This document shows, in pieces, positions 1 through 3,137 of a DNA stretch of 36,767 bases. The stretch's first letter is position 1. The number at the start of each line of letters is the position of its first letter. A model generated the notes under the pieces. It was not told the DNA's origin. It saw only the letters and a list, made by a program, of their open reading frames with translations, and made no database searches. This DNA is from Chitinophagaceae bacterium (GTDB lineage: Bacteria > Bacteroidota > Bacteroidia > Chitinophagales > Chitinophagaceae): positions 1-36,767 of the forward strand of contig JAICPX010000003.1 of assembly GCA_025929635.1 (NCBI GenBank), in the 5' to 3' direction. Position numbers and translations under genes: made by a program.

Positions 1-2
1 AT

Positions 3-131
3 CTGGAATTAGCGGTTGACTTTTTCAACAAGGCAATTGAACTGGACAACAAGTTTGCTCTCGCTTACGCGGATGCTGCAATTGCATATTACTATCTGGA
101 TATTTTTAAAGCTGTCGATCTTTTCTATTAA
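3..131 (+). pseudogene. Fragment of TPR-repeat protein (LELAVDFFNKAIELDNKFALAYADAAIAYYYLDIF...), truncated
   Basis: Frame 3 translation gives a TPR-like helix pair, then a stop at 129-131 shortly after the recognisable repeat; 5' part lies outside window. Confidence 0.5.
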
Positions 132-492: not shown

Positions 493-1056
493 ATGGCAAC
501 AACAGCAGATATCAGCCGCGGCATGATCATAAATCTGGACGGCAGTCTTTACAGTGTAGTTGAATTTGGTGAAAATAAAACTGCACGTGCGGCGGCCAAG
601 GTCTGGGCAAAACTGAAAGGTGTTGACAACAACCGAAGCATCGAAAAAACATGGAATTCAGGTGACACCATTTACCCGGTCCGTGTAGAGAAACGGACTT
701 ACCAGTTCTTATATAAAGACGATACCGGTTACAATTTCATGGATAGTGAATCTTTTGAACAAATTGCCCTACAGGAGGAAACCATTGATGCTCCACAGTA
801 TTTAAAGGAGGGACAGGAAGTCGGTATTTTGATCAATACCGAGAATGACCAGGTACTTGGTGCCGAACTTCCCGATAAGATCACATTACAGATCACGTAT
901 TGTGAACCGGGAGTGCGTGGGGATACTGCAACAAGAACTTTAAAGCCGGCAACATTAGAAACCGGCGCTACTGTCGGTGTTCCTCTTTTTGTAAATGAAG
1001 GTGAGCTCATTCGTGTAAATACAAAGACGGGTGAATACGTTGAAAGAGTAAAATAG
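493..1056 (+). CDS. efp: Translation elongation factor P
   Basis: 187 aa, full-length EF-P similarity (EPGVRGDTATRTLKPATLETGA, VPLFVNEGELIRVNTKTGEYVERVK). Confidence 0.95.
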   Translation: MATTADISRGMIINLDGSLYSVVEFGENKTARAAAKVWAKLKGVDNNRSIEKTWNSGDTIYPVRVEKRTYQFLYKDDTGYNFMDSESFEQIALQEETIDAPQYLKEGQEVGILINTENDQVLGAELPDKITLQITYCEPGVRGDTATRTLKPATLETGATVGVPLFVNEGELIRVNTKTGEYVERVK

Positions 1057-1110: not shown

Positions 1111-1254
1111 ATGTGATTTTGCCCCGATTTTGGCCAAAACTTAGTAAAAACCTGGGTTTTCCGGTTTTGATTTCCCTATCTTAGCCAACCCTTAACTTCA
1201 CCACCGAAGCTCAGCGATCCAATCTTCGGGTAAAACTAACTTAAATTGAAAAAC

Positions 1255-1752
1255 ATGGACTTCAAGCAGATTCAGGAGTTGATCAAAATGGTCAACAAAT
1301 CAAATATTGGTGAGCTGACTGTTGAAATGAAGGATTTCAGGGTTACAATAAAGCAGAAGGAAGATAAGATTCAGCAAATCGTCAGTTCCCCCGTCCATTC
1401 GACACCGGCCATGTCTCACATGCACCACGTTCCCGCACATACATCTGCACCGCCGGCTACAATACCTGCGACCATAGACACAAAGAAAGAAACTCCTGTT
1501 ACCCTGAGTAATACCATTACCATTAAGAGCCCGATGATCGGTACATTTTATCGTAAGGCTGGCCCCGACAAACCAAATTTTGTGGAAGTAGGAGATGAGA
1601 TCATTCCAGGCAAGGTGATCTGTATTATCGAAGCCATGAAGCTCTTTAACGAAATAGAAAGTGAAGTAAAAGGAAGAATTGTAAAGGTCCTGGTAGAGGA
1701 TGCATCACCCGTGGAGTATGATCAGCCGTTGTTCCTGGTGGAGCCAGCATAA
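1255..1752 (+). CDS. accB: Acetyl-CoA carboxylase biotin carboxyl carrier protein
   Basis: C-terminal biotinyl domain with EAMK(L) motif; N-terminal MDFKQIQELIKMVNKSNIGEL; ORF can extend to TTG at 1246. Confidence 0.95.
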   Translation: MDFKQIQELIKMVNKSNIGELTVEMKDFRVTIKQKEDKIQQIVSSPVHSTPAMSHMHHVPAHTSAPPATIPATIDTKKETPVTLSNTITIKSPMIGTFYRKAGPDKPNFVEVGDEIIPGKVICIIEAMKLFNEIESEVKGRIVKVLVEDASPVEYDQPLFLVEPA

Positions 1753-1799: not shown

Positions 1800-3137
1800 G
1801 TGTTCAAGAAAGTACTAATTGCAAATAGAGGAGAGATTGCCCTTCGTGTTATCAGAACTTGCCGGGAAATGGGTATTAAAACAGTTGCTGTCTATTCCAC
1901 TGCGGATCGCGATAGTTTACATGTAAGATTTGCCGATGAAGCGGTTTGTATTGGTAAACCACAAAGCAGTGATTCATATCTCAATATTCCTCACCTGATG
2001 TCTGCGGCTGAAATAACCAATGCAGATGCGATACACCCCGGCTATGGTTTTTTAGCAGAGAATGCAAAGTTTGCTCAAATATGTGCTGATCACCAGATTA
2101 AATTTATTGGACCGACCCCTGATATGATCAATGCAATGGGAGATAAGATCACCGCAAAAGAAACCATGATCAAAGCAGGTGTCCCTGTTGTTCCCGGTGG
2201 CGAAGGTTTATTGGAAAGTCTAGAAGAAGCAAAAGGTTTGGCTAAGAGCATGAGTTACCCAGTGATATTAAAAGCAACTGCCGGGGGTGGTGGAAAAGGT
2301 ATGCGTATCGTTTGGGAAGAAGGCGAAATGGAAAGAGCGTACAACACGGCCAGGGCAGAAGCGGGTGCGGCTTTTAAGAACGATGGCATCTACATGGAAA
2401 AATTTGTAGAGGAACCAAGACATATCGAGATACAGGTTGCGGGTGATCAGTATGGAAATGTTTGTCACCTTAGTGAAAGAGATTGTTCAATCCAGCGTCG
2501 TCATCAGAAACTGGTTGAGGAATCACCTTCTCCATTTATGACCGATGAGCTGCGCCAGAAAATGGGCGATGCAGCAAAGAAGGCAGCAGGAGCTATCAGT
2601 TATGAAAGTGTCGGGACGATCGAATTCCTTGTTGATAAGCATCGCAATTTTTATTTCATGGAAATGAACACCCGTATCCAGGTTGAGCATTGCGTTACCG
2701 AAGAGGTCATCAATTTTGACCTGATCAAAGAACAATTAAAGATAGCAATGGGTGAAAGGATAAGTGGTAAAGATTATATTCCACAGGGACATGCGATCGA
2801 GTGTCGCATCAATGCAGAGGATCCTTATAATGATTTTCGTCCTTCCCCGGGAAAAATAACTGTCCTGCACACCCCTGGTGGACACGGCGTTCGTGTTGAC
2901 AGTCATGTGTACGCAGGTTATGTCATTCCGCCGTTTTATGATTCAATGATCGGTAAACTAATCACAATTGCCCGTACACGTAACGAAGCGATCGATACTA
3001 TGTACCGGGCATTAAGCGAATATGTAATAGAAGGAGTAAAAACAACGATCCCATTTCACTTACAGCTAATGCAGGACGAACGTTTCCGAAGCGGCGATTT
3101 TAATACAAAGTTTTTGGAAGGGTTTCATCTCAGATGA
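1800..3137 (+). CDS. accC: Acetyl-CoA carboxylase biotin carboxylase subunit
   Basis: 445 aa, [46 protein letters not shown] start. Confidence 0.97.

Follow-up and report, generated by a model that had tools for sequence, protein, structure and literature searches.

The efp locus of the window

The window, as we call the whole stretch of DNA that was analyzed (36,767 nucleotides), carries near its beginning the gene efp, which encodes elongation factor P (EF-P), a protein of 187 aa (positions 493..1056, + strand). It is followed by accB, encoding the biotin carboxyl carrier protein (1252..1752, +), and accC, encoding biotin carboxylase (1800..3137, +), both of which are ancestral neighbours of efp across Bacteroidota. 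The protein read from the open reading frame 493-1056 (+) has the N-terminus MATTADISRGMIINLDGSLYSVVEFGENKTARAAAKVWAKLKGVD. It matched the TIGR00038 equivalog over its full length with 207 bits (cut-off, 185.8), and the Pfam domains EFP_N, EFP, and Elong-fact-P_C were each found above cut-off. The nearest named loci belong to Chitinophagaceae MAGs, Terrimonas, Niastella, Puia, and Pinibacter.

This efp is the sole copy found in its genome, which gave one PF08207 match only and no second canonical efp; the search for another copy, suggested as a check on the original prediction, thus left a single efp, as far as a completeness of about 92% allows. We also considered the possibility that the protein was EfpL/YeiP. 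This identity was rejected, the scores being 98.9 bits versus a cut-off of 264 for TIGR02178 and 116 versus a cut-off of 216 for NF003392.

Upstream of efp, the first ~85-110 bases of the window have the appearance of a chimera. A TPR-like fragment is encoded there on the + strand, and from about residue 92 (window position ~85) a TlpA-like ORF on the - strand (9-359) no longer resembles its homologues in the family. The chimera (window 1-110) probably reflects an artefact of assembly at the end of the contig.

An arginine at the tip of the EF-P loop

In the usual account, EF-P is activated by modification of its loop tip, either a lysine carrying a beta-lysyl or aminopentanol group or an arginine carrying rhamnose. 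The loop of the window protein reads ENKTARAAAKVWAKLK and carries Arg32 (codon CGT, 586..588, +). In an ungapped alignment to EF-Ps of solved structure, this residue stands opposite Arg32 of Thermus EF-P, the lysine of PGKG EF-Ps and Lys34 of the E. coli type. The preceding residue (-1) is Ala31 (583..585, +), which equals the G31A change made in Pseudomonas putida EF-P. Residues K29-K36 (KTARAAAK; 577..600, +) make up the rebuilt beta3-beta4 loop, and the strand residues Lys36-Val37-Trp38 (598..606, +), which changed along with the tip, stand where Lys-type relatives have Phe-Val-Arg.

An AlphaFold model of the protein, for which the input alignment consisted mostly of family members and the mean pLDDT was moderate (71.8), predicted two strands (residues 18-29 and 35-43) joined by a loop (30-34), with Arg32 at the centre of this hairpin. 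Its closest fold match was Thermus EF-P (1UEB). The model supports the placement of Arg32 at the loop tip without refining it. The proposal that an arginine replaces the functional tip lysine was therefore confirmed by the ungapped alignment together with the predicted hairpin, and the loss of the loop proline and glycines was equally borne out, since Thr, Ala, and Ala stand where the Lys-type has Pro30, Gly31, and Gly33. The resemblance that had been drawn to the Pseudomonas Arg-type loop (NKSGRNSA) held only in part: the two loops align without gaps, but the likeness concerns few residues and the flanking strand is unlike.

Conservation of the loop in Chitinophagaceae

Identity to the window EF-P was 67-83% in family members and at most 57% outside the family in an order-wide search. 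The alignment of EF-Ps across Chitinophagaceae, a further check that had been called for, revealed the Arg tip family-wide: it was present in every EF-P read (34 genomes from 26 genera, and 80 named loci). In the order-wide scan, KTAR was found in 134 of the 135 family genomes, no efp being detected in the remaining one. The pattern coding for KTARAAAK matched in 132 of the 135, these being whole-genome matches that were not each placed individually in efp; the exceptions were KTARSAAK, KTARAGAK and genome G312, which had no efp match. The reversed pattern, used as a control, gave 1 match in 399 genomes. Matches to KTARAAAK outside the family (2 of 264 genomes, G087 and G687) lay away from efp and were dismissed as chance.

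The window protein and every family row aligned have KTAR, that is, an Arg tip without Pro at -2, as well as Ala31, and the family EF-Ps follow the consensus E/Q-N-K-T-A-R-[AS]-[AG]-A-K-[VI]-W or depart from it by a single residue. When the loop codons were compared at 114 loci, all six Arg codons were in use at R32, as were all four Ala and all four Thr codons. Because these loci had been chosen by the KTARAAAK pattern, the invariance of the residues there is by construction, and it is the unselected family rows that provide independent evidence for it. The exact loop is invariant over ~50 genera of the family. As its protein sequence is constant across the family while the codons vary at silent sites, the Arg tip loop is not an error or a chance occurrence. 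With silent sites saturated and residues fixed, the sequences further indicate strong purifying selection on the KTARAAAK loop.

Two genomes listed as 100% complete, G312 (Chitinophagaceae) and G088 (family f20), gave zero efp matches, possibly through a true loss of efp or through an assembly gap.

Loops of other Bacteroidota

Beyond the family, the sampled Bacteroidota have Pro at -2 and either Lys or Asn at the tip, the exceptions being three small side lineages of Chitinophagales. Pro at -2 was present in 77 of 77 Lys-type (PGKG) rows and in 18 of 18 Asn-type rows (TPGNLR, NPGNWR and similar). One of the exceptional lineages, genus g99, is probably Haliscomenobacter, and family f19 is probably Saprospiraceae. 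The loop of g99 (KPARGAA; 3 genomes: L234, L235, L240) has an Arg tip and retains Pro at -2, a combination reported to be rare (2.33%; PMC6544042). Genus g312 has another Arg type, FQVGRGSGKVW (12 genomes: L232, L233, L236-L239, L241-L244, L246, L247), apparently the outcome of a separate switch. Finally, genus g68 has Gln at the tip, in the loop KMQQRRP (1 genome, G061, family f22; L064 / L245). A joined efp-plus-EarP query, which recovered both genes in the Ilyobacter control, gave no EarP match in the 16 genomes of these three lineages.

Origin of the loop

The descent of the gene was followed in a tree of 44 rows from which the loop columns 25-39 had been masked. The Chitinophagaceae EF-Ps formed one clade (100/99) inside the PGKG Chitinophagales; the starred branch that nests them there had a support of 96/91, and they were sister to families f3/f17 at 90/85. 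In a tree of 104 rows, the family joined the PGKG group of Bacteroidia with a support of 100. Genus g312 and a PGKG EF-P came out as sisters (97/83), and another PGKG row grouped with those of g99 (99/85). Parsimony counted seven tip-residue changes on the 44-row tree.

At 79 named loci, the genes conserved beside efp were accB, accC, a TlpA-like gene and malate dehydrogenase, the latter named from its sequence and not via a profile search. The order efp-accB-accC is common to most other Bacteroidota families examined. Based on the loop-masked tree and this conserved order, we favour, without regarding it as proven, an in-place switch from a PGKG ancestor, with vertical descent and independent origins of the Arg tips; two further, independent-looking Arg switches appear to have occurred in the sister lineages g312 and g99. 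That the rest of the protein is Bacteroidota-like, as initially stated, was thus right according to tree and gene order, with one alternative grouping not rejected by the AU test.

This grouping relates to the possibility that efp came by horizontal transfer from an Arg-type donor in another phylum. The AU test rejected neither a union of the family with the Arg types of proteobacteria and fusobacteria (p 0.40) nor one with Thermus (0.09), any more than it rejected unions with g312 (0.23) or g99 (0.08), and the stem branch of the family is long (0.33-0.39). Yet the family is nested among Chitinophagales when the loop is masked, with f3/f17 as sister, and falls with Bacteroidia in the larger tree; the EF-Ps most similar to it in other families are of the PGKG type, with up to 57% identity, versus 43% for the Ilyobacter Arg type; and the gene order is ancestral. 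We therefore regard a horizontal origin as very improbable and retain the in-place switch.

Search for modification enzymes

The original prediction had raised the possibility of an EarP-like modification in this lineage. EarP (PF10093, DUF2331) was found in none of 150 family genomes, including that of the window (133 were of high quality), and in none of 297 phylum genomes. As positive controls we used two plasmid records in which an annotated EarP adjoins efp; these were found at 532 and 330 bits, the latter match being to a distant Ilyobacter EarP. In the control genome of Thermus composti, EF-P was present and PF10093 gave no match.

The loop was also considered from the side of the enzyme. 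A Gly at -1 is required for efficient rhamnosylation: with P. putida EF-P G31A the rate in vitro was <1% of wild type, though overproduced EarP compensated for the change in vivo (PMC6544042). The family EF-Ps share with the EarP type the Arg tip and the absence of Pro at -2, but they have Ala31 throughout instead of Gly, and earP is missing from the 150 genomes. An Arg tip in a genome without EarP is what characterizes the Thermus-like, EarP-free Arg type, and the window EF-P shows this combination. With EarP absent from the family under working controls, and Ala at -1, the idea of an EarP-like modification had to be abandoned.

A divergent or missed EarP could in theory still rhamnosylate the arginine. 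The Arg tip without Pro at -2 would suit such an enzyme, and the search for dTDP-rhamnose genes was positive, RmlD, the dTDP-rhamnose reductase, being above cut-off in 30 of 41 family genomes, among them that of the window. However, a profile that detects the distant Ilyobacter enzyme found nothing in either the family or the phylum, and Ala31 is adverse to rhamnosylation. This explanation is extremely improbable in our judgement, and dTDP-rhamnose is probably made for other uses.

The epmA search was negative as well. EpmA (TIGR00462) was above cut-off in none of 41 family genomes, the best sub-threshold matches lying in frames of LysRS length, and in both of two control genomes. An EpmA-dependent, Lys-type EF-P was ruled out by this result and by the Arg tip. 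No candidate modifier gene was conserved beside efp at the 79 named loci; this survey covered the genes beside efp, and a distant modifier gene would escape it. With the EarP option gone, the other reading initially offered, that of an unmodified or otherwise modified Arg EF-P, stands as the best explanation.

Discussion

We consider it rather likely that the window encodes the ordinary and only EF-P of a Chitinophagaceae bacterium, that its PGKG loop was switched in place to an Arg loop and that Arg32 is bare, these three points being taken jointly. At the root of Chitinophagaceae, the Lys-type PGKG loop would have been replaced in place by KTARAAAKVW, with Arg at the tip. Arg32 would enter the ribosome beside the P-site tRNA and contact the CCA end (C75) without an added group, and this bare contact would relieve proline stalling. 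Together with the concomitant change of K36/W38 in the strand, losing Pro30 and Gly31 would have reset the loop geometry for Arg.

By analogy, Arg32 probably acts unmodified, in view of Ala31 throughout the family and of two precedents. Arg32 of Thermus EF-P contacts C75 of the P-site tRNA and has been taken as an adaptation to lacking modification (PMC2821294), and Arg33 of EfpL was unmodified by mass spectrometry, the factor being active (PMC11611912). The family-wide loop and the absence of EarP, of EpmA and of a modifier beside efp also speak for a bare Arg32. Against it, E. coli K34R has 20% activity (PMC6544042), the unmodified EF-P of Neisseria meningitidis has minimal function in its own host and an inhibitory effect in E. 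coli (PMC4739656), and dTDP-rhamnose is probably available, as indicated by RmlD. Of relevance here, the family and g312 alike have Lys36 and Trp38 in place of Phe and Arg, and Lys36 is present in Thermus too; position 36 is Val or Ile in the two EarP-dependent EF-Ps read. We offer as a hypothesis only, the pattern occurring in few lineages, that this correlated change may help an unmodified Arg to work.

The main alternative is that Arg32 is modified by an undescribed enzyme unrelated to EarP and encoded away from efp. Most well-studied EF-Ps are modified, unmodified Arg forms were weak in the hosts tested (PMC6544042; PMC4739656), and the invariance of the loop over ~50 genera is what one would expect if an enzyme read it. 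Ribosome contacts alone can account for this invariance, however; no candidate gene is conserved beside efp, and a second lineage changed K36/W38 together with the tip, which suggests compensation within the protein. We hold such an enzyme to be unlikely, though far from negligible. Should Chitinophagaceae modify Arg32 by an undescribed chemistry that is independent of EarP and recognizes the invariant KTARAAAKVW hairpin, which we likewise doubt, this would be a fourth bacterial route of EF-P modification.

Four known systems stand close to the window EF-P. Thermus thermophilus EF-P (PDB 1UEB, 4V6A), an Arg type without known EarP and the best structural match, shares with it the position of the tip Arg, the absence of Pro at -2 and a Lys at +4 (LGRGGAKVVAKF). 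The Thermus protein differs in that its Arg is flanked by Gly (LGRGG), that of the window EF-P by Ala (TARAA), and it is not sister to the Chitinophagaceae EF-Ps in the tree. EarP-dependent EF-Ps (Pseudomonas, Neisseria, Ilyobacter) share the Arg tip, the absence of Pro at -2 and, in some cases, NK before the loop, but have Gly at -1 and come from organisms in which earP adjoins efp. EfpL/YeiP has an Arg tip too; unlike the window EF-P, it is a paralogue, its loop is longer and a Pro lies upstream. The Lys-type PGKG EF-Ps of other Bacteroidota have the same domains, the same efp-accB-accC locus and ~50% identity, whereas their Pro30, Gly31, Lys32, Gly33, Phe36, and Arg38 are Thr, Ala, Arg, Ala, Lys, and Trp in the family.

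Arg-type EF-Ps without EarP are known in kind from Thermus and Deinococcus, and among genomes that lack YjeA/YjeK, 24% of the EF-Ps have Arg, EarP users included (PMC2821294). We found nothing relevant on Chitinophaga or Bacteroidetes EF-P or on the KTARAAAK loop in the open-access papers searched, though supplementary lists of the large EF-P surveys may include such sequences. What is new is a family-wide, EarP-free Arg EF-P with a rebuilt KTARAAAK loop in Chitinophagaceae. A whole family with close relatives that keep Lys, and two further, apparently independent Arg switches in the same order, constitutes a natural experiment on how the loop can change its chemistry with no recruitment of EarP. 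According to a proposal by Volkwein et al., the Arg tip arose before EarP was brought in (PMC6544042), a state that the Chitinophagaceae, g312 and g99 lineages would exemplify.

Elsewhere in the same class, family f23 (L184-L189) has two or three EF-Ps per genome, Asn-type (TPGNLR) and Lys-type (TPGKGG) copies coexisting, in tandem in genome G394.
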